Below, piece by piece: positions 6,371 through 20,301 of a stretch of DNA of 20,301 nt. Location: positions 1-20,301 of the IMG/VR virus record IMGVR_UViG_3300043469_000961. The stretch is one strand, 5' to 3'. The notes below the pieces were generated by a model. It saw nothing but the letters and a program-made list of their open reading frames with translations. It was not told the DNA's origin and did no database searches. Each line of letters starts with the position of its first letter. Position 1 is the stretch's first letter. The position numbers and the translations under genes were made by a program. This stretch comes from a virus.

Positions 6371-8560
6371 TCACGCTGCCTTCTTCATCATCCTGGCTTT
6401 CATGTACTCCTTGACCAGGTCCATTTGTTTCTCTTCGCGCCGTGCCCCCATATCCAAGACCTTGAGTTGAGCCTGGCTACGGGCTTGCTCACCATGGAGT
6501 TGGAGATCACGAGCTTGAGTAACCCCAGATTCCTGCTCAACAAACTGCAGGTTCTTGAGATCAGCGGCTGACTGCAAATCACCCGCCTTGGCTGCCTCAG
6601 TGCCCACCTTGGCGCCTGCCAGTTGGCTGTCGGCTTGGAGCTTCATAGCCTTGGCCATGGTTTCTTGCACCTGAGCCTGCAGCAGTTGAATCTGCAGTTG
6701 CTGCATCTGCTGCTGCATCGGGTCAGGCTGCGGCTGATAGCTCTCAATCCGCTTGGCCAGATCAGGCATCTTGCGCAGGCGAGCGATGTCGCTGAGGATC
6801 ATCTTGCTCATGCCAGGGTCCATGTCGTTGCCGATGGTCTGCAGCATGAAAGCCAGTTCACGGGCTTTGTTGTCGTCCTCTTCTGCCGTCGAAATCGACA
6901 GCTTCAGGTCGAAGTTGCCGGCCAGGTCATCACGACGAACCAGCACAAAGTCTTCGTTGGTGATCCGAATGACCTCTTCTTCGGACAGAAACTCCGCGTT
7001 CATGGCAATGAACTTGCGGCCGATCTGAACGATGCCTTCAGCAAGTCGGCGCAGGATGCCGAGCTCACGCTTGGATGCAGCATCCAGAGCGCCACGAACA
7101 CCGGCAGCCACATCACCCAGGCTCTGGCCAGAGACCCCACCGGCAAAGCTCTTCACACCGGTCAGGGACTCCGAGTCCATGTTCACCATCTGGAGCATGA
7201 ACTGGGCTGATTGAGGAATCTCCGGGTAGGTGTGCATGTGGACGCCCACACGAGGGTCCACGTTAGCGTTGAACTCGTAGTCCTGACCAGCCTCGAACTT
7301 GCGACGGTTGGTGGTGTCCAGCATGTCTTTGCGCATGCCGGTTTGGCCGTTGGCTGACTTGCCCAACAGATCGATCATCCCTCGGGTGACTGCACCCATC
7401 ACCTTCTGGTTGTCCTCCAGCAGCGCACCGTCAGGCTCACCATGGGTGCTCTTGCGCTTGGGCAGGTACTGCACCAGGACGAAGGGCAGTTCCTTGTCCG
7501 GGAACGGGCTTTCTTCCATGCGGATGAGCACATCACCCACCCAGGCTGCAACGAACGGCACGGTCTTGCCACTGCCGTCGATGTCCCAGAAACCCCAGTA
7601 CTCCTGAACCACGAACTTCTGCCGGGCCTTGTCCTTGAAGTTGAAGTTCTCAGCCCCGGAATCCTTGCTGGATCCGTGGTCCGGAGTCGCCAGCACCGAG
7701 TGGTTGCTGGGGTTCACGAAGTTCAGGTTCTTGTACTTCGAGTCTTTGCTCAGCTCAGAAATCGAGCTCTCGAATGAGAACGAGATGAACTGGGCTTTGC
7801 GCAGGTTCCCGTGACAGGTGGGATCTACAACCACGTTTCGGTAGTCGCAGATCTCAACAGTCGGGCGGTTCTTGACGGTCTTGAAGCCCCTCTCTTTGGT
7901 GAACTTCTGGACATCAGGACGAACAGGGGCACCGTGCTCTTGCGAAAGCAGATGAGCTTGCTTGAGCTCATCGGGCACCTCGAACTTGTAGCGCACCGGA
8001 TCCTGCTGCTTGAGTTGCTCCAAGAACTCGATGGTTGAGCCGAAGTTGGGGTCGATGACATACCTGGCATCAGCCACGGTTTCTTCAACTTCGACTTCTT
8101 CAAACTCCCAGCCCACTCGAACCAGAACAGTACCTTCGTCGACAGCAGTACGGACGTACTCGTCGATGAATCGAACCTTGTCGATCTGAGTATTGAACTG
8201 GTGGTTCAACACAAGCTGGTTTTGCTGTGCTGCTTTGCGGTCTTCCCAGGTCACAGGGGAGACGTTGAACACATCTGGAGTGCTGAGAAACGGCTCGCTC
8301 AGGGCTGGATACCGCCACTCAGCCTGCTTCCGAATCAGTTTCGGGGCGATCTTGGAAGCGTTTCCAGGAGTTCCAGCAGGAGCCGTGCCGCCCTCTTCCA
8401 GGTTCTTCAGCCACTGGGTGATCTTGCCCGTTTTGGCATCATGAATCGGTTTTGCTTCGACCAGGTCAGCTTTCAAATCTGACAGCTTCGGAGCATTTGC
8501 CCAATTCACCAGTTTCTCTGGCATACCCTGGTTTTGGGTAGTATCAGCTTGGTTTTCCAT
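6371..8560 (-). CDS. portal protein (N4 gp59-like)
   Basis: A 729-residue protein that would form the dodecameric portal for DNA entry and exit at one head vertex. It lies upstream of scaffold and capsid and is close in length to N4 gp59 (about 760, from memory). Seen: an N-terminal region with PALSEPFLSTPDVFNVSPVT, a segment VDEGTVLVRVGWEFE, a central QYLPKRKSTHGEPDGALLED region, a Gly-rich FAGGVSGQSLGDVAAGVRGA, and a long Gln/Ala-rich coiled-coil C-terminus (about 630-729). The start is ATG at 8560 (MENQADTTQ) with AGGA about 9 nt upstream; a GTG at 8608 would extend into the divergent promoter region and is less likely. It has its own upstream region because the opposite-strand cassette separates it from the terminase unit. 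Confidence 0.85.
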   Translation of the reverse strand: MENQADTTQNQGMPEKLVNWANAPKLSDLKADLVEAKPIHDAKTGKITQWLKNLEEGGTAPAGTPGNASKIAPKLIRKQAEWRYPALSEPFLSTPDVFNVSPVTWEDRKAAQQNQLVLNHQFNTQIDKVRFIDEYVRTAVDEGTVLVRVGWEFEEVEVEETVADARYVIDPNFGSTIEFLEQLKQQDPVRYKFEVPDELKQAHLLSQEHGAPVRPDVQKFTKERGFKTVKNRPTVEICDYRNVVVDPTCHGNLRKAQFISFSFESSISELSKDSKYKNLNFVNPSNHSVLATPDHGSSKDSGAENFNFKDKARQKFVVQEYWGFWDIDGSGKTVPFVAAWVGDVLIRMEESPFPDKELPFVLVQYLPKRKSTHGEPDGALLEDNQKVMGAVTRGMIDLLGKSANGQTGMRKDMLDTTNRRKFEAGQDYEFNANVDPRVGVHMHTYPEIPQSAQFMLQMVNMDSESLTGVKSFAGGVSGQSLGDVAAGVRGALDAASKRELGILRRLAEGIVQIGRKFIAMNAEFLSEEEVIRITNEDFVLVRRDDLAGNFDLKLSISTAEEDDNKARELAFMLQTIGNDMDPGMSKMILSDIARLRKMPDLAKRIESYQPQPDPMQQQMQQLQIQLLQAQVQETMAKAMKLQADSQLAGAKVGTEAAKAGDLQSAADLKNLQFVEQESGVTQARDLQLHGEQARSQAQLKVLDMGARREEKQMDLVKEYMKARMMKKAA

Positions 8561-12446: not shown

Positions 12447-12931
12447 CAGTGCTTGGTGTCCGTGGATCGAATGTCGCTGAAGCCCAGCACATCCGTCCCG
12501 TTTCCACAGTCCACATTGAACAGGCAGGCCACTTCCACTGCCTTCAGGGCGTCGTGGCCCAGGTGCATGGCTGCCAGGGCAAAGTCACGGCCAGAGCCCC
12601 AGGCACCGGTTTTGTCCTCGAACAGCATGGGGTACGGACCAGCGGTGTAGAGGCGGATGCCCTGCTCTTTGCTGATCGCCACCAGCGAAGCCCTGCGGTC
12701 AGGATCCAGAGGAGGAAACTCTTCCGGGTTGGCCCCGTCCTTGAACCACTGCAGCAAGGCTGCAGAGGTGCAAAAGTCACCGCACACACCCACCAAGACT
12801 TCTTCCACCGTCTCGTCTTCGTAGTGGAAGTCGAAGCGTTCGATCTTCGTGACGGTGCCCTTGAGCCCACACGAGTCAGTCGCCTGTTTGTCAGCGACCA
12901 AGTTCTTTCCATCCCAAGCAATGACTGTCAT
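12446..12931 (-). CDS. HslV / proteasome-beta-like Ntn hydrolase
   Basis: A 161-residue protein that reads as a phage member of the HslV/20S-proteasome beta fold. Thr2 follows the initiator Met (MTVIAWDGKNLVADKQAT), so methionine removal would expose a catalytic N-terminal Thr. DKQAT aligns with HslV DGQAT (Asp17), TVTKIERF carries a Lys at the Lys33 position, VGVCGDF matches the Gly47 loop, and GSGRDFALAAMHLG matches the HslV GSGGNYALAA helix. HslV itself is about 175 residues. The gene overlaps the upstream gene by 4 nt (ATGA) and terL by 1 nt, so it is embedded in the packaging operon. Substrate unknown: it may act on head proteins or host proteins. No ATPase partner (HslU) is seen in the window. 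Confidence 0.88.
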   Translation of the reverse strand: MTVIAWDGKNLVADKQATDSCGLKGTVTKIERFDFHYEDETVEEVLVGVCGDFCTSAALLQWFKDGANPEEFPPLDPDRRASLVAISKEQGIRLYTAGPYPMLFEDKTGAWGSGRDFALAAMHLGHDALKAVEVACLFNVDCGNGTDVLGFSDIRSTDTKH

Positions 12932-13638
12932 GGTGAGATCTCCTTGGCTTGCACATCTACTACAGAACCGGTAGCCAGCACCTTGCTGTGGGCCACCTGT
13001 TGCGCATTCATCACACCAGCCTGCAGGATGAGCTTCTGCTGCTGCACCAATTCCAGGGTGGCCTGCCGCAACTGGCCAATGGAGCTGTCTTCCTTGACCG
13101 TCAGATCGAGCTCAACCGTCTGCTTCTCAGGCATCTTCAGGTGCGAGAGCAGCGAGTTGGCCGCATCCGATCGCACCTTTTCACTCTTGGCCGTCACCAT
13201 CAACTCGGCCTGGACATTCAAGGCCTTCTGGTACAGATCCTGGTTCAGGACATAGCTGGGAATCAGCGTCTGCTCGAGAATCAGGTTGACCAGCTTGGAC
13301 TTGTTGTAGGCCGTGACGTAGGACGCAATGTCCTTAGACGACACCCCTTCGCTCTGGAAGCGAAGTATCTTGTCCGGGAATGTCTTGCTGTAGGCATCGA
13401 TATTGGTGCAGCCCATGAGCTTGTGGCTCACATACTTCACCGCATTGATGTACTCAGACACCTTGAACCGCCCATCAGCCATCACCTTGGTATAGCTGAG
13501 GAGGTTGTCCCGGTATGCCTCGAACAACTCAGGCTCTGACAGAGTGGCATTCACCTGGTCAACCAGCTGTTGGTTGACAGATTTCTTCACTTTGTCAGGC
13601 AAAGCTGCCCGAAACTGTTCGACAGTGAGTGCCGACAT
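12928..13638 (-). CDS. putative terminase small subunit (N4 gp69 position)
   Basis: A 236-residue, mainly helical protein, first gene of the late packaging operon. The C-terminal part (TAKSEKVRSDAANSLLSHLK, then KQTVELDLTVKEDSSIGQLR and a coiled-coil helix) resembles the C-terminal half of small terminases in several phage groups, in which the part before LLSHLK is a helical, repeat-packing segment. The N-terminal half lacks an obvious helix-turn-helix that I can define. The start is ATG at 13638; a TTG at 13644 is possible. It would recognise the packaging site and load terL, if the assignment is right. The operon order small terminase, Ntn hydrolase, large terminase is tight, with overlapping codons. 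Confidence 0.65.
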   Translation of the reverse strand: MSALTVEQFRAALPDKVKKSVNQQLVDQVNATLSEPELFEAYRDNLLSYTKVMADGRFKVSEYINAVKYVSHKLMGCTNIDAYSKTFPDKILRFQSEGVSSKDIASYVTAYNKSKLVNLILEQTLIPSYVLNQDLYQKALNVQAELMVTAKSEKVRSDAANSLLSHLKMPEKQTVELDLTVKEDSSIGQLRQATLELVQQQKLILQAGVMNAQQVAHSKVLATGSVVDVQAKEISP

Positions 13639-13653
13639 ATTCAACCCAGAGTT

Positions 13654-13672
13654 GGTATATCGGGGTTATACC
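13654..13672 (-). promoter_or_regulatory. perfect inverted repeat GGTATA-n7-TATACC before the late operon
   Basis: The arms GGTATA (13654-13659) and TATACC (13667-13672) flank a 7-nt spacer, 16 nt upstream of the first late gene and downstream of the tRNA terminator. It could be an operator or the -10 region of the late promoter; TATAAC lies within it on the minus strand. No clear -35 is seen. Confidence 0.4.
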
Positions 13673-13685
13673 GTAGAACCAAAAC

Positions 13686-13711
13686 AAAAGCCCCATACTC
13701 TGGGGCTTTTT
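13686..13711. terminator. terminator between the tRNA unit and the late operon
   Basis: AAAAGCCCCA pairs with TGGGGCTTTT (10 bp, 5-nt loop TACTC), with T-runs on both strands. On the minus strand it lies just after tRNA-Asn, so it ends the tRNA transcript and isolates it from the late operon. Confidence 0.88.
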
Positions 13712-13717
13712 GTATTC

Positions 13718-13793
13718 TGGCTGGCAAACCTGGGCTCGAACCAGGGACCGCTCGGTTAACAGCCGAGTGCTCTACCGACTGAGCTATCTGCCA
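13718..13793 (-). tRNA. tRNA-Asn (GTT)
   Basis: The minus strand folds as a full cloverleaf: acceptor TGGCAGA/TTTGCCA with one G-T pair, D arm TAGCTCAGTCGGTAGAGCA, anticodon stem-loop CTCGG-CTGTTAA-CCGAG with anticodon GTT, and T arm CCTGG-TTCGAGC-CCAGG. The discriminator is G and the CCA end is encoded (13718-13720). Confidence 0.97.
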
Positions 13794-13799
13794 AGAGAA

Positions 13800-13852
13800 A
13801 AGTGGTGGTTGGGGTACAGATCCAACTACTGAGGGCTTGGCCGCTCGTCACC
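13800..13852 (-). pseudogene. tRNA-like remnant between the two tRNAs
   Basis: The spacer between the tRNAs reads on the minus strand GGTGACGAGCGGCCAAG then a stem-loop and CCAACCACCA. GAGCGGCCAA is the D-loop sequence of type II tRNAs such as tRNA-Tyr, and the block ends in CCA. The anticodon arm and a proper T arm are missing; a GTAGTTGG/CCAACCAC stem with 9-nt loop (one mismatch) takes their place. This may be a decayed third tRNA. Confidence 0.3.
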
Positions 13853-13859
13853 ATAAAAC

Positions 13860-13945
13860 TGGTGGATGCTCTAGGTATCGAGCCTAGTGGGCGCAAAGTC
13901 AGCTGCTTTACAGGCAGCTCCCGCTCCTTAGGGGTCTACGCATCC
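13860..13945 (-). tRNA. tRNA-Tyr (GTA)
   Basis: An 86-nt type II tRNA. The acceptor is GGATGC/GCATCC with a G-A mismatch at the seventh pair, the D stem is CCC/GGG, the anticodon arm is GCTGC-CTGTAAA-GCAGC (anticodon GTA), the variable region is 14 nt, and the T arm is CTAGG-CTCGATA-CCTAG. The discriminator is A with encoded CCA. Oddities: the T loop starts with C instead of T (position 54), and the variable arm pairs poorly, so activity is less certain than for tRNA-Asn. Confidence 0.85.
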
Positions 13946-13955
13946 AATGAGAGGG

Positions 13956-13961
13956 AGTATA
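13956..13961 (-). promoter_or_regulatory. candidate sigma70 -10 box of the tRNA unit
   Basis: TATACT on the minus strand lies 10 nt upstream of the mature 5' end of tRNA-Tyr. No convincing -35 hexamer is found 16-18 nt before it. Confidence 0.35.
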
Positions 13962-14001
13962 GCCAGAAAATAGCCGCGAGTTTTTCAGAATTTTGTGAGC
14001 T

Positions 14002-14056
14002 GGGTACGGATGCAGTACTGACTGCAGGGCGCCAATCTTCGGAAGTACCCCCCCCC
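14002..14056. repeat. nested inverted repeat ending in a nine-C run
   Basis: GGGTAC (14002-14007) pairs with GTACCC (14045-14050). Inside lie TGCAGT-ACTG-ACTGCA (14011-14026) and CTTC-G-GAAG (14037-14045). The right arm runs into nine C residues (14048-14056). It is in the gene-free 13946-14181 stretch between the tRNAs and the first plus-strand gene, which otherwise shows only the palindrome CTCCGGAG (about 14062-14069) and the hairpin at 14126. It may mark a genome end or a regulatory site. Confidence 0.45.
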
Positions 14057-14125
14057 ATCACTCCGGAGAAGTATTTCACAGGCACCTACCCCCTCTTCGT
14101 TCATTGCCCATGCAGCCCAGCATCC

Positions 14126-14136
14126 GTCCTCCGGAC
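14126..14136 (+). promoter_or_regulatory. hairpin GTCC-TCC-GGAC, candidate N4-type vRNAP promoter
   Basis: A 4-bp stem closes a TCC loop, followed by AGGACGCGG, 45 nt before the first plus-strand gene. A competing pairing (CGTCC with GGACG, 14125-14142) is possible. The 3-nt loop with a purine in the centre of the template strand fits the N4 vRNAP promoter rule (known for N4). The stem is short. Confidence 0.35.
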
Positions 14137-14181
14137 AGGACGCGGCGATGTTGCCATTCTTCCCTGATCAGGAGATTTCAC

Positions 14182-14454
14182 ATGGGTTCTATGTTCCGTC
14201 AGCTGTGGGCCATGCTCACCGCATTCTTCAGTGCTGGTGAGGTGCTGGGCCAGGCTACCTTGGGTGGTGCTACTGCACTCAAGCATCTGTCTACCTGGGC
14301 AGAAGAGAGCGCAGGCTCCTTCGCAGACCAAGCTCGACAGCAGCGCCTGCAGAGCAACGCAGTACTCGAGGCCACAACCCGCCAAGCACTGCTGGCCAAT
14401 GGCCTTGCTGCACCTGCACAACAGCCTTCGACCACTCCGGTCACTGCTCCCTAA
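14182..14454 (+). CDS. small early protein of unknown function
   Basis: A 90-residue protein. The N-terminal third is hydrophobic to amphipathic (MFRQLWAMLTAFFSAGEVLG, then Gly/Ala-rich). A charged helix follows (about residues 40-75), then a Pro/Thr/Ala tail. The start ATG 14182 has a strong AGGAG 7 nt upstream. It is the first plus-strand gene after the tRNAs, probably an early host-interaction gene by position. I do not recognise the family. The C-terminal Pro/Thr tail suggests disorder. Confidence 0.75.
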   Translation: MGSMFRQLWAMLTAFFSAGEVLGQATLGGATALKHLSTWAEESAGSFADQARQQRLQSNAVLEATTRQALLANGLAAPAQQPSTTPVTAP

Positions 14455-14463
14455 ACCTTCCCT

Positions 14464-14482
14464 GGCCGGCTAATCACCGGCC
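14464..14482 (+). terminator. hairpin between the two small early genes
   Basis: GGCCGG pairs with CCGGCC (6 bp, 7-nt loop), 10 nt after the stop codon, followed by TTCCTTC rather than a clean T-run. It is a weak terminator or a transcript-stabilising hairpin. Confidence 0.45.
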
Positions 14483-14509
14483 TTCCTTCATCTTCTCTGG
14501 AGTTCCCTC

Positions 14510-14779
14510 ATGCGCTACACCATCACTGTTCTGGTTGCCCTCACGGCTTGTGTCCTGATGGCTCTCTTCGGCCTCTTCGACATGGCTCAGGATTGGCATC
14601 TCATCGGCCAAGGCTTGAATCCCAAGCTGGCTTACAGCCTCATGGCTCTGCTGATCTTCTTCTACGGAGGCTTCCTGGTGCTGAGCATCTTCCGCCTGGA
14701 AGAGCAAGCATCCCAGGTGTGTGAACTCGAAGACGACCTCAAGTGGGTCGATCTCAGGTCTTCTCTCCCTCGGGAGTAA
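14510..14779 (+). CDS. small early membrane protein, two transmembrane segments
   Basis: An 89-residue protein. Membrane segments are at about residues 5-24 (ITVLVALTACVLMALFGLF) and 42-62 (SLMALLIFFYGGFLVLSIF), joined by a short loop (MAQDWHLIGQGLNPKLAY), with an acidic cytoplasmic-looking tail (about 63-89). No signal peptidase motif is evident. TGGAG 7 nt upstream supports ATG 14510. A terminator follows directly, so with the previous gene it forms a short early unit. Function unknown: possibly inner-membrane remodelling or superinfection exclusion, which would be speculation. Confidence 0.8.
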   Translation: MRYTITVLVALTACVLMALFGLFDMAQDWHLIGQGLNPKLAYSLMALLIFFYGGFLVLSIFRLEEQASQVCELEDDLKWVDLRSSLPRE

Positions 14780-14785
14780 CCAACT

Positions 14786-14816
14786 CTCCTCTACCTTCGG
14801 GTAGGGGAGGTTTTTT
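14786..14816 (+). terminator. terminator after the first early unit
   Basis: CTCCTCTACC pairs with GGTAGGGGAG (10 bp, one G-T) around a TTCG tetraloop, followed by GTTTTTT. It lies 6 nt after the stop codon. Confidence 0.93.
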
Positions 14817-14831
14817 CTTCTTATAAAGAAG
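14817..14831. repeat. CTTCTT-ATA-AAGAAG inverted repeat
   Basis: A perfect 6-bp AT-rich stem with a 3-nt loop, immediately after the terminator T-run. It contains TATAAAG. It could be an AT-rich middle-promoter element or part of the terminator; no test is possible here. Confidence 0.35.
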
Positions 14832-14850
14832 AGTGTAGCTTAGCCCTTAA

Positions 14851-14874
14851 ACACACCATACACACCATACACAC
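14851..14874. repeat. tandem ACACACCAT repeats
   Basis: Two full copies of ACACACCAT (14851-14859, 14860-14868) and a partial third (ACACAC), in the gene-free region after the first early terminator. Confidence 0.8.
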
Positions 14875-14981
14875 TGAGATAGTCCAGTATGAACAGAAAG
14901 AGATCGGAGCTCTCTCTTCCTATCTCAGTTCAACTGAATCTCTATCTGCAGGTTTTTGTAGAGAGAGTCCAGATGGGAGTC

Positions 14982-15021
14982 AGTGCACTACATCTGAGCT
15001 ATCTAGCTCTACATCTGCACT
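14982..15021. repeat. two-tier inverted repeat
   Basis: The outer arms AGTGCA (14982-14987) and TGCACT (15016-15021) enclose inner arms GAGCTA and TAGCTC (14996-15009, 2-nt spacer). The two tiers are separated by near-identical CTACATCT and TACATC blocks. The layout fits a cruciform or a protein-binding site. Confidence 0.6.
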
Positions 15022-15060
15022 ATCTCCATCTCTACTACTCATCTCTACTCATCTCAACAT

Positions 15061-15075
15061 GCGTCGTCCCGACGC
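15061..15075 (+). promoter_or_regulatory. hairpin GCGTCG-TCC-CGACGC, candidate vRNAP promoter
   Basis: A perfect 6-bp stem with a TCC loop, followed by TTTTTGAGC. The same arrangement, 6-bp GC stem, TCC loop, then TTnnTGAG at the same distance, recurs at 19247-19261. N4 early promoters have a 5-7 bp stem and 3-nt loop with a central template-strand purine. The T-run means a small terminator is the alternative. Confidence 0.45.
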
Positions 15076-15096
15076 TTTTTGAGCTTTTCTGTCATA

Positions 15097-15116
15097 CCGA
15101 TACTCCGCCGATACTC
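15097..15116. repeat. direct repeat CCGATACTC x2
   Basis: Two identical 9-mers (15097-15105 and 15108-15116), 11 nt apart, about one helical turn, just downstream of the 15061 hairpin. The spacing suits paired protein-binding sites. Confidence 0.7.
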
Positions 15117-15276
15117 ACTAAAGTAGATGCTGAGTAGTTCTCCCTACCTTGTCAAGCTACTAGCTCTGACTTGTAAGGGCATGTGTAGCTCTCCACTCAC
15201 ACCCTCACAATCCTCATCGCTCGTGGTGTAGGGGTTGACAGCTCTGCTTCCTTCCTACTTGGTCTGCTCTCTACCA

Positions 15277-15291
15277 CTGTCCTTCGGACAG
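15277..15291 (+). promoter_or_regulatory. hairpin CTGTCC-TTC-GGACAG, candidate vRNAP promoter
   Basis: A perfect 6-bp stem with a TTC loop, 68 nt before the gene at 15360, followed by GAGATGGG and no T-run, so it is not a terminator. It shares the core GTCCTYCGGACAGGA with the 14126 hairpin. By the N4 rule, transcription would start about 11 nt after the loop centre (near 15295). Confidence 0.5.
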
Positions 15292-15359
15292 GAGATGGGA
15301 CAGGCCGTGGTGGCTTCTCCTCTCCCTCAACTCGCCTACGGGCTTCTCTGGAAACCAAC

Positions 15360-15692
15360 ATGAACTTCAACGTCAACACCAAGAACAACGCCCAGCAAGT
15401 CGCCAACGACAACTGGAAGGCAGCCGGCTTCATCAACCTCTACCTGCCCAAGGCGGAAGGTGGCCAGACCAAGCTGGGTGCCATTGCCTTGCGCATGAGC
15501 AACCCGGACGAGGCTGCTCTCTTCTCCTGGCTGAAGGCCAACAAGCCGGTGCCGGTGGAAGCCGAGGATCCGGACACCGGTGAGGTCATCAATCGCGACA
15601 TGCTGCCCATCGAGATCCTGCTGAGCCAGCTCGTGATCGACTTCCGCGAAGTCCGCACCGATGGCAAGCGGTTCGCACTGCCCGGCATGTAA
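15360..15692 (+). CDS. conserved small protein of unknown function (early)
   Basis: A 110-residue protein. Residues 18-45 (NWKAAGFINLYLPKAEGG, then KLGAIALRMS) look like the start of a beta-rich domain, and a helical end follows (MLPIEILLSQLVIDFREV). The block FINLYLP...KLGAIALR occurs in small proteins of several phages that I cannot name with certainty. It has its own hairpin promoter candidate and its own strong terminator, so it is probably made in quantity as a single-gene unit. The ribosome site is TGGAAA. A single-stranded-nucleic-acid-binding role is conceivable, but I see no supporting motif. Confidence 0.8.
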   Translation: MNFNVNTKNNAQQVANDNWKAAGFINLYLPKAEGGQTKLGAIALRMSNPDEAALFSWLKANKPVPVEAEDPDTGEVINRDMLPIEILLSQLVIDFREVRTDGKRFALPGM

Positions 15693-15709
15693 CTCCTGCC
15701 TCTCAACTC

Positions 15710-15746
15710 AGCCCTCATCCCTCACGGGGTGGGGGCTTTGTTTTTT
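15710..15746 (+). terminator. strong terminator after the 110-residue gene
   Basis: AGCCCTCATCCC pairs with GGGGTGGGGGCT (12 pairs including two G-T) around TCAC, followed by TTGTTTTTT. It lies 17 nt after the stop codon. Confidence 0.92.
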
Positions 15747-15843
15747 CCACCACCAATCGAGACACCAGCAGAGCAGACAGACAGTTCATCGGACTGCTTG
15801 CCTGCTGTGCTTGTTTCTTCCCGCCCTTCCTCTCGCCTACTTG

Positions 15844-15854
15844 CCGCTTCGCGG
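15844..15854 (+). promoter_or_regulatory. hairpin CCGC-TTC-GCGG, candidate vRNAP promoter
   Basis: A 4-bp stem with a TTC loop followed by AGGAACTGGG, 41 nt before the SLOG gene and after a strong terminator. The TYC-loop plus AGGA pattern is shared with the 14126 element. The stem is short, so support comes mainly from position and similarity. Confidence 0.35.
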
Positions 15855-15895
15855 AGGAACTGGGCTTCGCATGTAGCGGAGTACAGGAGAAACCA

Positions 15896-16270
15896 ATGAA
15901 AACATTCAAGCTCATCGTCGCAGGCAGTCGAGGCTTCAGCAACGTAGACGTGTTCAACCTCTACATGCAAGAGACCGTTCGTCACGTGATGCTCAAGTAC
16001 AACCAGCCAACCATTGAGATCGTCAGTGGCATGGCACGTGGTGCTGATGCCATGGGTGCTCAGTTCGCTGAGCTGAATGAACTCAAGCTCTACAAGTTCC
16101 CCGCTGAATGGGACAAGTACGGCAAGAGTGCAGGCTATCGACGCAACGCTGAGATGGGCCGCATGGCCGATAGTCTCGTGGCCTTCTGGGACGGTAAGTC
16201 CAGAGGCACTCAGCACATGATTGAGACCATTCGAGATCTCAACAAAGAACTCATCATCGTCAACTACTAG
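15896..16270 (+). CDS. SLOG-fold (YspA/DUF2493-like) protein
   Basis: A 124-residue protein with the signature of the SLOG/DUF2493 family. The N-terminal strand and glycine loop are KLIVAGSRGFSNVD (about 5-18); then come EIVSGMARGADAMGAQFAEL (41-60), FPAEWDKYGKSAGYRRNAEM (68-87), ADSLVAFWDGKSRGTQHMIE (91-110) and a final strand ELIIVNY. The GSRGF and SGMARGAD loops form a nucleotide-binding pocket in this Rossmann-like family, proposed to bind nucleotides or their derivatives. The role in phages is unknown. AGGAG precedes ATG 15896. The stop is 10 nt before RNAP subunit 1, so it is the first gene of the polymerase operon. Confidence 0.9.
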   Translation: MKTFKLIVAGSRGFSNVDVFNLYMQETVRHVMLKYNQPTIEIVSGMARGADAMGAQFAELNELKLYKFPAEWDKYGKSAGYRRNAEMGRMADSLVAFWDGKSRGTQHMIETIRDLNKELIIVNY

Positions 16271-16279
16271 GGGAATCGC

Positions 16280-17251
16280 ATGGACAACATGCTCCAAGTC
16301 GTCAAGCAAGAGTGGATCGAATCTCGCTACAGCCGCAGGCTCATCGACACCAAGATCCGTGACGAGATCTTTGCCTGTGACCCTTTGGTCGAGAAGGTGG
16401 CCAAGGGTGTGCATCTGCTGGAGCAGTTCTGCGAAGGTCTGTACTACGACTCCAAGCAGCAGCGTGTGCATCAGCTCAAGCAGCTCGATCTCACCGAGCT
16501 GGTGACCCAGGTGTTCATCGGTGTTGCCTACTTCAGTGAGCCAACGCTGTTCACCAGTGTCTGCTCGCAGATCGCAGGCCGTCTCGGCTTCGATGACAAG
16601 AAGGCAGCCATCACCACGTGCAGTGAGATCCTCGCTGTGCTCAGTGAGACCGATGTGTTCGACATCACCAAGGCCAGCCCACAAGCCAGCATCATGCTGG
16701 TGTCACGCATGGAGCTGAGCGCAGAGCTGAAGCAGTTCATCGAGAACAGCGCCTACCTGCCTCCCATGGTGGTGGAGCCACTGGACCTCACCACCAACTA
16801 CTGCTCAGGCTACCTCAGCGAGAAAAGCAGTCTGATCCTGGGTAAGGGCAACCACCACGATGGCGACATCTGTTTGGACGTGCTCAACAAGCTCAACAAG
16901 GTGCGCCTGAAGCTGGACGTTGATCTGCTGAAGAACCTCGAAGAGAACCCGACCAAGGAATTCACTGTCGAGTGGGCCATGGCCAATGCACTGGAGAAAG
17001 GCAAGCACATCACCGAAGCAGAAGCTGCTGAAATTGCGCGTGCTGCCATCGACCAGTGGCATCAGTTCAAGCAGAAGGGCCATGAGATCTACGCACTCAT
17101 GATCAACAGCGGCAACGAGATCTACCTGACCAACAAGGTGGACAAGCGTGGCCGCATCTACGCCCAGGGCTACCACATCACCACCCAAGGAACCAGTTTC
17201 AAGAAAGCGATGCTCGAGCTCGCGCATGAAGAACTGGTGACTGGGATCTGA
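16280..17251 (+). CDS. RNA polymerase subunit 1 (N4 RNAPII gp15-like)
   Basis: A 323-residue protein matching the N-terminal half of a single-subunit T7-like RNA polymerase. The last 40 residues carry TNKVDKRGRIYAQGYHITTQ, equivalent to the T7 segment DWRGRVYAVSMFNPQG near residue 425, and the protein ends before motif A. The rest is helical and diverged. In N4, gp15 and gp16 form a heterodimer (RNAPII) that transcribes middle genes. This protein is somewhat longer than N4 gp15 (about 270, from memory). GGGGA lies before ATG 16280. The catalytic residues lie in the partner at 17576-18838, so neither is expected to be active alone. Confidence 0.92.
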   Translation: MDNMLQVVKQEWIESRYSRRLIDTKIRDEIFACDPLVEKVAKGVHLLEQFCEGLYYDSKQQRVHQLKQLDLTELVTQVFIGVAYFSEPTLFTSVCSQIAGRLGFDDKKAAITTCSEILAVLSETDVFDITKASPQASIMLVSRMELSAELKQFIENSAYLPPMVVEPLDLTTNYCSGYLSEKSSLILGKGNHHDGDICLDVLNKLNKVRLKLDVDLLKNLEENPTKEFTVEWAMANALEKGKHITEAEAAEIARAAIDQWHQFKQKGHEIYALMINSGNEIYLTNKVDKRGRIYAQGYHITTQGTSFKKAMLELAHEELVTGI

Positions 17252-17252
17252 C

Positions 17253-17432
17253 ATGGGCTACGGTCCTGTCATCAACGGCAAGCAGAAGCCCATCACTCCA
17301 TGGAAAGGGAGTTGGGCTGCTGAGCTGGAGCAACAACGCAACGAACAGAGGAAGAACCATGCTGACCAACAAAGAGAAGTTCTCCCAACTCATGAAAGAG
17401 TTCGAAGTCCCGTTGATCGAAACAAGCCGTGA
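17253..17432 (+). CDS. short ORF between the RNAP subunits (uncertain)
   Basis: A 59-codon frame beginning MGYGPVINGKQKPITPWKGS, starting 1 nt after the RNAP subunit 1 stop and overlapping the next gene by 74 nt. The N-terminal part reads like a protein and the charged middle (ELEQQRNEQRKNHADQQ) like a helix. The part that overlaps the next gene is less convincing. GGGA upstream is a weak ribosome site. It may be a real coupled small gene whose tail overlaps its neighbour; function unknown. Confidence 0.4.
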   Translation: MGYGPVINGKQKPITPWKGSWAAELEQQRNEQRKNHADQQREVLPTHERVRSPVDRNKP

Positions 17433-17562
17433 AGCCACGGAAAGCCTGACTATCGAAGACAAGGGAACCACTCCGAAGATTGAGGGGTACACCTGCTTCT
17501 TCAGTGAGTTTGTGTTTGATGCGCGCACTGGTGCGTTCATCAAAGTCTGCATCTTTGAGTGA
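17359..17562 (+). CDS. small protein between the RNAP subunits
   Basis: A 67-residue protein with a strong ribosome site (AGAGGAAG, 4 nt spacing). It starts with a charged helix (MLTNKEKFSQLMKEFEVPLI), followed by an acidic middle and a beta-like end (EGYTCFFSEFVFDARTGAFI). It is 13 nt from RNAP subunit 2 and clearly co-transcribed with both subunits. I do not recognise a family. An accessory role with the polymerase is possible only by location. Confidence 0.7.
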   Translation: MLTNKEKFSQLMKEFEVPLIETSREATESLTIEDKGTTPKIEGYTCFFSEFVFDARTGAFIKVCIFE

Positions 17563-17575
17563 CAAGGGAACCAAC

Positions 17576-18838
17576 ATGAAGACATTCACCGGCTGGCAGT
17601 ATCTGCTGATCGACTTGGCCAACGCCTACGGCCTGGACAAGCTCACCTTCGAGAAACGAATCGAATGGGCTGAAGCTCACCTGCCCTTGCTCGAAAGCTG
17701 CCTGGGTGCAGCTGAGAACCCGCCGCTGTTCTACAAGGCCATGACTGCCATCCGCAAGGCTCAGCAGGGCATTCCCACCGGCCACCTGGTGGGCTTCGAC
17801 GCTGCCTGCAGCGGCATGCAGATCATGAGCGTGCTCATGGGCTGCGAGGCCGGTGCTGCAGCGACAGGCCTGATCCATCAGGATGTGCGCTCGGACGCTT
17901 ACAGCAGCGTCACCCAGGCCATCAACCAGCTGCTCTCAGCAGAAGGCTTGGCCGGTGTGCAGGTGAGCCGCAAGCAAGCCAAGAGCGCCACCATGACCAG
18001 CCTGTACGGTTCCACCCGTCAGCCCAAGCTGATCTTCGGTGAGGACACGCCCGAGCTGAAAGCCTTCTTCGAGGCCATGAAGATCGTGGCACCTGGTGCA
18101 TGGGAGCTGCTGCACATCCTGCTGAACAGCTGGCAAGACATGGCCCTGAGCCATGAATGGGAGCTGCCTGACGGCTTCCAAGCCAAGATCAAAGTCATGG
18201 ACACCGTGGAAACGCGAGTGGAAGTGGACGAGCTGGGCCACAGCACGTTCACCTACCAGTATCGTGAGAACACTGGCCTGCCTGCTGGGCACCACAAGGC
18301 CAAGAGCAATGCAGCCAACGTGGTGCATAGCATCGACGCCTACGTGCTGCGCTCGATCCATCGTCGTTGCAACTACGACTTCAATGAGATCGACGACGCC
18401 AGGATGCTCGTGAGCACCATGCTCACCACCCGTGCGCTCAGCAATGGCCAGCCTGTGGAAGCCAGCAACAAGCGCATCGCTCGCTACATCCGGCTCTGGG
18501 AAGAGACCGGCATGGCTGATGTGGTCATTGCACCGCACCTGACGCCAGCCACGGTAATGATGCTGCCTACGAAGATGCTGCAACAGCTTGAAGGCATCAT
18601 GTTCTCGATGCTGGAGCACAAGCCCTTCGAGGTGGTCACCATCCACGACGAGTTCAAGTGCCATGCCAACAACATGAACCACCTGCGTCAGCACTACAAC
18701 AACATCCTGGCTGAGCTGGCCAACAGCACAGTGCTCGACTCCATCCTGAGCCAGATCCATGGCCAGAAGGGCACTGTCACCAAACGAAGCGCCGACCTTG
18801 CCAGCAAGATCCGCAACGCCAACTACGCACTCTGCTGA
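17576..18838 (+). CDS. RNA polymerase subunit 2 (N4 RNAPII gp16-like), catalytic
   Basis: A 420-residue C-terminal part of a T7-like RNA polymerase. Motif A is GFDAACSGMQ (Asp75, the T7 Asp537 equivalent). Motif B is SRKQAKSATMTSLYGS (Arg132, Lys136, Tyr144, Gly145; T7 Arg627, Lys631, Tyr639, Gly640). The AANVVHSIDAYVLR segment is at about 247-259, and motif C is VVTIHDEF (Asp358, the T7 Asp812 equivalent). Both metal-binding aspartates are present. The start ATG 17576 follows AAGGGAACC; an earlier in-frame start at 17480 would read through the upstream gene. About 105 residues separate HSID from HDE, against about 27 in T7, so there is a large insertion. N4 gp16 is about 400 residues (from memory). 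Confidence 0.94.
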   Translation: MKTFTGWQYLLIDLANAYGLDKLTFEKRIEWAEAHLPLLESCLGAAENPPLFYKAMTAIRKAQQGIPTGHLVGFDAACSGMQIMSVLMGCEAGAAATGLIHQDVRSDAYSSVTQAINQLLSAEGLAGVQVSRKQAKSATMTSLYGSTRQPKLIFGEDTPELKAFFEAMKIVAPGAWELLHILLNSWQDMALSHEWELPDGFQAKIKVMDTVETRVEVDELGHSTFTYQYRENTGLPAGHHKAKSNAANVVHSIDAYVLRSIHRRCNYDFNEIDDARMLVSTMLTTRALSNGQPVEASNKRIARYIRLWEETGMADVVIAPHLTPATVMMLPTKMLQQLEGIMFSMLEHKPFEVVTIHDEFKCHANNMNHLRQHYNNILAELANSTVLDSILSQIHGQKGTVTKRSADLASKIRNANYALC

Positions 18839-18841
18839 ACC

Positions 18842-19018
18842 ATGAACACTATCCTAGTCATCATGGTTTTGGTGGGAAGACAAAATCTTCCCATTCACGT
18901 AGTGGAGTACCCCACTGAAGAGGCGTGTAAAACTGCTGCGAAAACCAACACAGACACTTCTTGGAATGGAAGGCGAAGCGCAGTCTGTGTTCCAAAGTTG
19001 AGCCTACCTAAAGGCTGA
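18842..19018 (+). CDS. short protein with hydrophobic N-terminus
   Basis: A 58-residue frame starting 3 nt after the RNAP subunit 2 stop. It has a short hydrophobic start (MNTILVIMVLVG), then YPTEEACKTAAKTNTD and a CVPK near the end. Many small phage and bacterial exported proteins share this layout of hydrophobic start, Tyr-x-x-x-x-x-Cys, then Cys-Val-Pro; the two Cys could form a disulfide outside the cytoplasm. No Shine-Dalgarno is visible, so coupling to the polymerase stop is likely if it is translated. Confidence 0.6.
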   Translation: MNTILVIMVLVGRQNLPIHVVEYPTEEACKTAAKTNTDTSWNGRRSAVCVPKLSLPKG

Positions 19019-19021
19019 ACC

Positions 19022-19180
19022 ATGGACCGCAGCTACAAAGAAGTTGACCTGGTGCACGTACACCTGGAGCGGGTGCAAGACCCACTCATCAAAGTGTTCT
19101 CCCAAGTTCCCTACAGAGTAGGGGGCATGGACTACTACCTGTACCAGGACAGGCTGTACTACGGCTACCAGCAGCCTTAA
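19022..19180 (+). CDS. short protein, apparently cut by an in-frame TAA
   Basis: A 52-residue frame starting MDRSYKEVDLVHVHLERVQD, with AAAGG 7 nt upstream and overlapping no gene. It stops at TAA (19178-19180) after YYGYQQP. The same frame continues for 21 codons with protein-like content, DGYVYILLSKPVPVHGGIYV then Tyr, to TAG at 19244-19246, directly before the hairpin at 19247. The Tyr/Val/Gly-rich style is the same on both sides of the stop, so the original gene may have been 19022-19246, cut by a Gln or Glu to ochre change. No known family. Confidence 0.55.
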   Translation: MDRSYKEVDLVHVHLERVQDPLIKVFSQVPYRVGGMDYYLYQDRLYYGYQQP

Positions 19181-19246
19181 GATGGGTACGTCTACATCCT
19201 GCTGAGCAAGCCTGTGCCTGTTCACGGTGGCATCTACGTGTACTAG

Positions 19247-19261
19247 GCGCGGTCCCCGCGC
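19247..19261 (+). promoter_or_regulatory. hairpin GCGCGG-TCC-CCGCGC, candidate vRNAP promoter
   Basis: A perfect 6-bp all-GC stem with a TCC loop, followed by TTGGTGAG, matching the layout of the 15061 element (stem, TCC, stem, TTnnTGAG). It lies about 290 nt before the gene at 19553, as the 15061 element does before 15360. A terminator with only two T after it is less likely. Confidence 0.5.
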
Positions 19262-19265
19262 TTGG

Positions 19266-19297
19266 TGAGTCGGGCTTCACCTCCCTGGCCTGACTCA
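19266..19297 (+). other. 10-bp hairpin in the leader
   Basis: TGAGTCGGGC (19266-19275) pairs with GCCTGACTCA (19288-19297), one G-T pair, 12-nt loop, followed by TTTCCC. It would be at the very 5' end of a transcript started by the 19247 element. It may be a weak terminator, an attenuator or a transcript-protecting hairpin. Confidence 0.55.
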
Positions 19298-19318
19298 TTT
19301 CCCTGTACGTTGCCATTT

Positions 19319-19353
19319 GCTGCCTATCCCTCCGGGGGTAGGCAGCTTTTTTT
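19319..19353 (+). terminator. rho-independent terminator after the RNAP operon
   Basis: GCTGCCTATCCC pairs with GGGGTAGGCAGC (12 pairs with one G-T, 4-nt loop TCCG), followed by seven T. It ends transcripts from the RNAP operon and would also stop or attenuate transcripts from the 19247 hairpin. Confidence 0.95.
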
Positions 19354-19552
19354 GTTCAACCTCAGTTCATTACAGCCAAGCATGGCTAGTAGTGGTTGGC
19401 AGATAGTCCAAGCCAACAAAGAGAGCTTGTATAGACCTTCTGAGAAGTTCTGTACAAGTTCTCAAAACATTCAAACCGGGATACTAACTTCAGAGATTTT
19501 CGATTTCTGACTATGTACACCCGATACACCAACCCCCTGTTTCACCCTAACC
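19354..19552. other. gene-free stretch with three consecutive hairpins
   Basis: No gene is seen between the terminator and the gene at 19553. It holds AGCCA-AGCA-TGGCT (19374-19387), GTTGGC-n11-GCCAAC (19395-19417) and a very long hairpin (19421-19463). An AT-richer part follows with GGATACTAAC (about 19480-19489) and CGATACACCAAC (about 19520-19531), which share GATAC with the 15097 repeats. It may be a structured leader, a small RNA, or a promoter/operator region for the ATPase operon. Confidence 0.5.
19421..19463. repeat. 43-nt near-perfect hairpin with a 3-nt loop
   Basis: The arms 19421-19440 and 19444-19463 give 20 opposed positions: 17 Watson-Crick pairs, two G-T pairs (19425/19459, 19432/19452) and one mismatch (19436/19448), around the loop TGA. 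The 5' arm starts GAGAGCTTGTATAGA and the 3' arm ends ACAAGTTCTC. There is no T-run after it (AAAACATTC), so it is not a terminator. Confidence 0.85.
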
Positions 19553-19747
19553 ATGGCCCTCTTCCACGTTGACGAGCCCAAGCCGCTCCGTTCCAACAGC
19601 CTGTTCCCCACCTTCGACACCGTCGAAGAAGCAGAGTCCTACGCATGCTCCCGCGTGCCCGTCTCGACCCACAACGAGATGTTCGGCCTGCTCCAGACCT
19701 ACCAGAACACCATGCTCAAGCAGGTGGGCTCCAGCAACTTCTCCTGA
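19553..19747 (+). CDS. small conserved-looking protein before the MoxR gene
   Basis: A 64-residue protein, MALFHVDEPKPLRSNSLFPT then DTVEEAESYACSRVPVSTHN and a helical end (EMFGLLQTYQNTMLKQVG). No Shine-Dalgarno precedes ATG 19553 (CACCCTAACC), which is unusual for this window. The stop is 8 nt before the MoxR start, so the two are coupled. Codon use (third-position C/G) matches the neighbouring real genes. Family unknown; probably an accessory to the ATPase by location. Confidence 0.7.
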   Translation: MALFHVDEPKPLRSNSLFPTFDTVEEAESYACSRVPVSTHNEMFGLLQTYQNTMLKQVGSSNFS

Positions 19748-19755
19748 GAACAGCC

Positions 19756-20301
19756 ATGACCATTGCAACCAGCATCCGTGAACTCCCCGACCTGGTCATC
19801 GAGTACCTCCAGTGCAACCTGGTGCCGATGATCACTGGCAGCCCTGGCATCGGCAAGAGCGATGTCGTGCGCCAAGTGGCACAGAACTTCAACCTGAAGG
19901 TCATCGACCTCCGCCTGGCCCAGATGGACCCGGTGGACATGATGGGCTTCGCCAGCCGAAACGACAAAACCGGAAAGGGTTATTACCTGCCGATGGAGAC
20001 GTTTCCGCTGGAGAGCGATCCCATTCCTGCCGGTTACGCAGGATGGCTTTTGTTCTTGGACGAGCTCACCTCGGCCAAAGACGCCATCCAAGCAGCTGCC
20101 TACAAGGTCATCCTGGACCGCATGGTGGGCAGCAACCCGCTCCACAAGAACGTGGCCATCGTGGCTGCAGGCAACAAGGAGAGCGACAACGCCATCGTCC
20201 AGCCGATGAGCTCAGCTCTGAAGAGCCGCATGGTCCACCTCGAAGTGGAAGTGAACCCGAACCACTTCTGCGAGTACGCCTCGGCCAAGGGCTGGGACCA
20301 G
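19756..20301 (+). CDS. MoxR-family AAA+ ATPase (N4 gp24-like), C-terminus off the right edge
   Basis: 182 residues are visible and the gene continues past the window. Walker A is GSPGIGKS (28-35), Walker B LLFLDE (98-103), the sensor 1 Asn is in VAAGN (140), and a candidate arginine finger lies in SALKSRMVHLEV (Arg158). The order fits MoxR-type AAA+ proteins, which usually work with a von Willebrand A-domain partner as chaperones; N4 has such a pair (gp24/gp25, from memory), so a VWA gene is expected just right of the window. It probably helps assemble or remodel a middle-stage complex; the substrate is unknown. The ribosome site is weak, and coupling to the upstream gene is likely. Confidence 0.92.
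   Translation, partial: MTIATSIRELPDLVIEYLQCNLVPMITGSPGIGKSDVVRQVAQNFNLKVIDLRLAQMDPVDMMGFASRNDKTGKGYYLPMETFPLESDPIPAGYAGWLLFLDELTSAKDAIQAAAYKVILDRMVGSNPLHKNVAIVAAGNKESDNAIVQPMSSALKSRMVHLEVEVNPNHFCEYASAKGWDQ

Follow-up and report, generated by a model that had tools for sequence, protein, structure and literature searches.

The stretch of DNA analysed here (hereafter, the window) covers the 20,301 nucleotides of the IMG/VR record IMGVR_UViG_3300043469_000961, a 20.3-kb fragment, and comes from a novel phage of the Schitoviridae (N4-like) family. By PHROG matches, the ORFs at 16280-17251 and 17576-18838 encode N4-like RNA polymerase subunits (PHROG 2166 and 2051), i.e., the two RNAP2 proteins, and a gp24-like ATPase starts at 19756; the RNAP2 genes put the window among the N4-like phages to which promoters of the virion-RNA-polymerase (vRNAP) class belong. 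As the record is a fragment, the gene for the vRNAP itself is not part of it. The RNAP2 proteins share less than 60 percent identity with those of any phage in our collection and at most 55-58 percent with those of viral contigs, and, by ATPase DNA, the nearest phages are Schitoviridae of Achromobacter, Pseudomonas, Delftia and others. When viral contigs were queried with the ATPase fragment (P0001), no close relative was matched, while the RNAP2 query did find relatives. Large ORFs occupy the minus strand up to 13644 and would be, by analogy with N4, the late genes; RNAP2 and the ATPase are encoded to their right, on the plus strand. No sigma-70 promoter was found in 13400-20301. A tRNA-Asn(GTT) gene (13718-13793, minus strand) is located between the late and early blocks and adjoins a bidirectional terminator (13686-13710). 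The features discussed in this work are the following:

13643-13676, minus strand: another copy of the operon-start unit, immediately upstream of the first late gene (12928-13644)
15061-15075, plus strand: second TCC-loop hairpin, GCGTCG-TCC-CGACGC, followed by TTTTTGAG; it may serve the RNAP2 operon as its early promoter
17576-18838, plus strand: RNAP2 large subunit, N4 gp16-like; the early operon ends here
19247-19261, plus strand: hairpin with a 6-bp stem and a TCC loop, GCGCGG-TCC-CCGCGC; loop at 19253-19255, loop centre 19254 corresponding to -11
19262-19275, plus strand: conserved motif, putatively the downstream promoter part and the initial transcribed sequence, TTGGTGAGTCGGGC (family consensus TTGGTGAGTTGGAA), with a predicted +1 at G19265
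19265-19353, plus strand: predicted non-coding RNA of about 89 nt, with two hairpins
19265-19298, plus strand: 5' hairpin of the predicted RNA, 12 bp, with a 10-nt loop UCACCUCCCU containing UCACCUCC; an insertion relative to the relatives
19319-19353, plus strand: intrinsic terminator with a 12-bp stem, a 4-nt loop and T7; it would also end the early RNAP2 operon
19368-19417, plus strand: two adjacent hairpins (elements 4 and 5), not conserved
19421-19463, plus strand: long hairpin (element 6), whose right part, GAGAAGTTCTGTACAAGTTCTC, matches the AGAAGT/ACTTCT repeats of relatives
19475-19526, plus strand: bipartite operon-start element (left ACCGGGATACTAACTT, right TTTCTGACTATGTACACCCGATA); candidate middle promoter or regulatory site
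19756-20301, plus strand: AAA ATPase, N4 gp24-like, which opens the middle operon together with a 64-aa ORF at 19553

An earlier note on this DNA had described six structured elements in a row between 19247 and 19463, and all six are present where it placed them. The hairpin at 19266 is longer than the 10 bp that it had been given (12 bp, 19265-19276/19287-19298, around a 10-nt loop), and AGCCA-AGCA-TGGCT at 19374 is only the 5-bp core of a stem that really extends over 19368-19378/19383-19394. The terminator at 19319 (stem 19319-19346, with 8 GC among its 12 bp, then T7) has the G+C-rich stem and T run of an intrinsic terminator, and the two remaining elements are GTTGGC-n11-GCCAAC at 19395 (6 bp, 19395-19400/19412-19417) and the long hairpin at 19421 (15 bp including G-U pairs, 19421-19435/19449-19463). 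What is not supported is a description of them as one array of linked elements; we find three modules instead, hairpins 4-6 lying beyond the terminator and being unconserved as structures. The 312-nt interval folds far better than its dinucleotide shuffles (z -9.6, 0/100 shuffles), as does the 96-nt 5' part that includes the predicted RNA (z -6.7), and the pieces of the hairpin interval folded separately give z values of -5.3, -6.3, -4.2 and -7.7.

We propose that 19247-19261 is a candidate promoter of the N4 vRNAP type. The injected polymerase of N4 reads promoters in which the template strand extrudes a hairpin; the 3-nt loop of this hairpin is centred at -11 and follows the rule -12A, -11 purine and -10G (PMC4496689). 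The 19247 hairpin is perfect and, with the predicted +1 set by analogy with N4 spacing (PMC4496689) at G19265, the first base of the 19266 hairpin, its 3-nt loop is centred at -11 and reads GGA on the template strand and TCC on the non-template strand. Template -8G and +1C are also present (non-template C19257 and G19265), -8G being a position that is not conserved across the family, where the near-invariant stem position is -6. The window hairpin thus resembles the N4 promoters P1-P3, used by the vRNAP (gp50), in being a short perfect hairpin of the early region with a 3-nt TTC/TCC non-template loop on the sense strand, a template central purine flanked by -10G and -12A, a T-rich step and a G start about 11 nt past the loop centre. 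It differs from them by its 6-bp stem, by the family's -8 base, by its location after RNAP2 and before a terminator, by the existence of further copies far from the left end, and by its closing pair: the 3'G:C5' pair that closes the N4 loop on the template is inverted at 19252/19256 and variable in relatives, so that the hairpin may be said to work like, rather than to be, an N4 vRNAP promoter.

Several counts argue that such hairpins form a genuine class. For the window as a whole, counting both strands, 0.17 hairpins with a TCC loop and a stem of at least 6 bp are expected, and two were found (19247 and 15061), both on the plus strand. When the N4 genome was scanned for short perfect stems closing a TCC or TTC loop, all three known early promoters P1-P3 (90, 557 and 4546) were recovered. 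Twelve complete or near-complete genomes were surveyed for the loops of their 6-bp hairpins: on the sense strand TCC leads with 52 (against 9 on the antisense strand), and TTC comes next (15). In 72 Schitoviridae sequences (1.76 Mb), a perfect 6-bp TCC hairpin followed by YN2-5YGA occurs 59 times in sense and 3 times in antisense, and the other 63 loops have a mean of 1.25 in the same scan. In a 27-site alignment, each of the six stem pairs covaries, with 51 double-change cells compared to 12 in shuffles, a count that leans towards structure, the rows having been picked as perfect hairpins.

The pairs themselves show that the palindrome is maintained at the DNA level and not as RNA. Among sites picked by loop, downstream motif and terminator only, then kept if at least 5/6 pairs formed, the TCC hairpins have 210 Watson-Crick, 0 G-T and 6 mismatched pairs out of 216, whereas the terminators of those same modules have 364 Watson-Crick, 57 G-T and 3 mismatched pairs out of 424 (for G-T pairs, 0/216 versus 57/424, i.e., 13 percent; Fisher p 3e-11). 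Since G-T pairs are absent from the hairpin while the neighbouring terminators use G-U, we conclude that the hairpin is selected as DNA. Loop size varies between phages (3, 4 or 5 nt) and goes together within a genome, for instance CTCCT, TTCCG and TTCCC in one genome (G012, L045) and ATCC, TTCC and TTCCT in another (G011, L044). This is what a single protein that reads all copies and evolves along with them would produce, and it suggests a coevolution of the hairpins with the polymerase. To our knowledge, the doctrine established with N4 confines vRNAP promoters to the left end, where they serve only early protein genes. TCC hairpins are nevertheless found far from the left end in LUZ7 (35257 and 39359) and PEV2 (35520 and 39626), with counterparts in G014, G016, G017 and G005; they are often located 26-36 nt before an ORF, and the LUZ7 hairpin at 39359 directly precedes the gp44-like gene. 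Another polymerase may read these distal copies, and the N4 picture of promoters at the left end only may not hold for the family.

Directly downstream of RNAP2, the order hairpin, 'TTGGTGAG', terminator recurs across the family, with a TTGGTGA(G/A)TTGGAA-like linker. Under a relaxed rule, the module is present in 47/77 relatives, a count from which one mis-assigned site (L016) was left out and in which some rows are near-duplicates. Under a strict rule (hairpin, then terminator 30-90 nt later), TCC is found at 31 of the 75 non-redundant loci, the next loop at 4 and the reverse order at 3. By eye, a variant-loop version can be recognised at several loci that have no strict hit, and about one third of the relatives are devoid of the module. 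The end of the terminator stem usually lies 36-57 nt past the hairpin; it is 85 nt in the window because the 19266 hairpin has been inserted. Further TCC hairpins were observed downstream of the module, at +250 from the RNAP2 stop in PEV2-like loci (L072/L076) and at +1190 in L084, the latter having its own terminator and directly preceding an operon-start element.

The module also exists in cultured phages of the same family. LUZ7 carries GCGTTC-TCC-GAACGC at 8238-8252 followed by a terminator, which makes the prediction testable in a cultured phage, and PEV2 carries it too. Hairpin promoters with 4-5 nt stems and 3-nt loops had been predicted in LUZ7, LIT1 and PEV2 before genes 1, 12 and 13 (Ceyssens et al. 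2010, PMC3715699), and the RNAP2-terminator hairpins of LUZ7 and PEV2 are not among the locations named in the text of that paper. In N4, the terminator after gp16 occupies the same place as that of the window and has a similar core, GGCTATCCC-TACG-GGGGTAGCC; unlike the window, this N4 locus has neither the hairpin promoter nor the short RNA. Comparison within the family supports the earlier note in taking 19247 for a promoter: the transcript would start where the 19266 hairpin begins and reach the terminator about 85 nt further on. The comparison also strengthens the idea of a short structured RNA.

The probable product of the module is a tiny non-coding RNA, made very early during infection. 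At many loci, conservation extends to the opening ~12 nt of the transcript and to its length, which stays within a tight range; the sequence beyond ~12 nt is not conserved, and the typical module RNA would be scarcely more than a 12-20-nt tail and the terminator hairpin. In the literature that we surveyed, which did not include two studies mapping LUZ7 transcription, we found no earlier report of this RNA. The window RNA is more elaborate: its loop UCACCUCCCU, unpaired with a probability of 0.98-1.0, contains UCACCUCC, which corresponds to the 16S rRNA 3' end, and is thus an unpaired CU-rich loop of the kind that characterises the anti-Shine-Dalgarno (anti-SD) small RNAs. By chance, a 10-nt loop would match the 16S tail over 7 nt with a probability of 0.002, in a test chosen after the fact. 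Like the ar14 or cuckoo RNAs (RF02344, NfeR1) and the Burkholderia anti-hemB RNA (RF02837), the predicted RNA has an unpaired CCUCC-type loop and then a terminator hairpin; unlike them, it is phage-borne, depends on a putative hairpin promoter and has only one perfect anti-SD loop. Its whole-length Rfam scores (23.1 bits for RF02837 against a gathering cut-off of 49.5, and 22.3 for RF02344 against 58.8) are far too low for membership in either family, and weak matches of this kind recur in many control genomes, so that they denote a resemblance only. Another phage contig (G026) gave a higher RF02837 score, at an unrelated terminator near late genes. NfeR1, an ar14 RNA, silences mRNAs via CCUCC-type loops (PMC10746234). 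The exposed loop suggests that the RNA could pair with ribosome-binding sites in the window phage, an anti-SD role that is possible and is based on one loop in one phage. It is quite doubtful that, beyond this, N4-like phages use the injected polymerase for a dedicated small RNA as early as the first minutes of infection, when no phage protein has yet been made in the cell, and that the anti-SD copy in the window RNA selectively blocks host mRNA translation, phage genes, many of them with a weak SD, escaping it. The median SD pairing energy is -3.5 kcal/mol in the window, compared to -5.8 to -6.9 kcal/mol in three relatives, a difference that is only suggestive because the start-codon choices are unverified. 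Many window starts (15360, 17359, 17576, 18842, 19022 and 19553) stand in an AACC-ATG or ACCAAC-ATG context with a weak SD. We also considered a leaderless GUG peptide from 19265 and rejected it: its frame is open in the window, but relatives stop at codon 3 (GTGAACTAG in L040 and L048, GTGAGCTAG in L042).

Beyond the terminator, 19368-19463 contains three RNA-like hairpins with G-U pairs (z -4.2 and -7.7), hairpins 4 and 5 being short when taken alone. The corresponding interval gives z -3.0 or weaker in 14 of 16 relatives, the exceptions being L055, where it is similarly structured, and L068. Hairpin 6 overlaps AGAAGT/ACTTCT repeats lying before a conserved operon-start element, which, in relatives L015-L093, consists of CCGATANNCTAACT and an upstream ACTATATACA-like block. 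The two halves of the family element, ACCGATATTCTAACTT and TTTTTGACTATATACAGCCGATA, are 29-30 nt apart in 51/52 loci and, with one exception, the element ends 4-55 nt upstream of the next ORF. There is usually one strong sense-strand copy per genome, at the middle operon, and most complete genomes tested have a related unit on the opposite strand, immediately ahead of the first late gene. In the window, these two copies score 32.4 bits (19508, plus strand) and 17.1 bits (13676, minus strand), for a shuffle maximum of 9.1. The element is absent or unrecognisable in N4 and LUZ7. By eye, ACTTCT-like and TATTCT-like hexamers are found 17 bp apart in several relatives, with AGTTCT (19457-19462) and GATACT (19480-19485) as window counterparts. 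The element at 19475-19526 is probably the promoter of the middle (ATPase) operon. A replication origin had been considered for it, as most genomes have it only once and repeats adjoin it; this became less likely because a second copy fronts the late operon and the element lies 4-55 nt before start codons.

The best explanation, in our view, is that 19247-19261 is a vRNAP promoter giving rise to an RNA of about 89 nt ended at the terminator, the ATPase operon being started separately; reading the sequence alone, we give it a probability of roughly 0.6. Negative supercoiling of the early region would extrude the hairpin, and the virion RNA polymerase, injected with the DNA, would bind it as in N4, start near G19265 and stop close to 19353, where the terminator ends. 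A two-hairpin non-coding RNA of ~89 nt would thus be released in each round, minutes into infection and with no need for the host polymerase. The same terminator would also end the long early transcript encoding RNAP2, and the middle operon would start from the 19475-19526 element. The predicted RNA would most likely act as a small regulatory RNA.

A serious rival is that the promoter-terminator pair has a purely mechanical role: the promoter would have no meaningful product, and the pair would reload or park the vRNAP on the DNA during ejection or set local supercoiling. Promoter, order and spacing are conserved, and the transcript sequence barely so, which agrees with such a role; the elaborate fold of the window RNA and the conservation, in many loci, of the transcript start and length range speak against it, and we hold it to be unlikely. 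Alternatively, the 19247 promoter could serve the second polymerase (RNAP2, a gp15/gp16-like heterodimer), the short RNA being a middle product. This would account for the TCC hairpins found 26-36 nt upstream of gp44-like and other middle-region genes, where N4 uses RNAPII, but the RNAPII promoters of N4 are AT-rich and without hairpins, and it is the N4 vRNAP promoters that consist of such hairpins (PMC4496689); we regard it as rather unlikely.

The earlier note had also raised the possibility that the ATPase operon has an attenuated leader. In a reading of this kind, the 19247 promoter would mainly feed the operon and the terminator would be an attenuator relieved later, with hairpins 4-6 in the switch. 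The order of the elements on the DNA and the good folding of hairpins 4-6 as RNA, with G-U pairs, speak for such a leader. Its case is weakened by the conserved operon-start element of the middle operon, a candidate for the separate promoter right of 19463 that the earlier note itself had named as a counter-argument, by the whole genes that intervene between terminator and operon in several relatives and by the lack of conservation of hairpins 4-6. Moreover, attenuation calls for mutually exclusive terminator and antiterminator folds, and the 312-nt fold contains independent hairpins only, the terminator having no alternative pairing partner; we therefore consider attenuation highly unlikely. 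Finally, a hairpin directly before the terminator, in the RNAP2 context, might be an RNA element of the early mRNA 3' end (a double hairpin end, a stability element or a processing site) and no promoter at all, which is hard to believe of a hairpin that has no G-U pair, against 13 percent in the terminators, and that precedes genes elsewhere.

The vRNAP promoter with its short RNA thus remains our preferred reading. The N4 family is the textbook case of phages that bring their own RNA polymerase. A candidate promoter aimed at the terminator after RNAP2 is conserved in dozens of lineages, including the cultured LUZ7 and PEV2, and the DNA-not-RNA signature of its hairpin provides a simple criterion for annotating promoters of this kind in phages from metagenomes. 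If our reading is true, the injected polymerase would also make a short non-coding RNA, or the short transcript would be a mechanical or regulatory device at the switch between early and middle expression, two roles of the module that can both be tested in laboratory phages.
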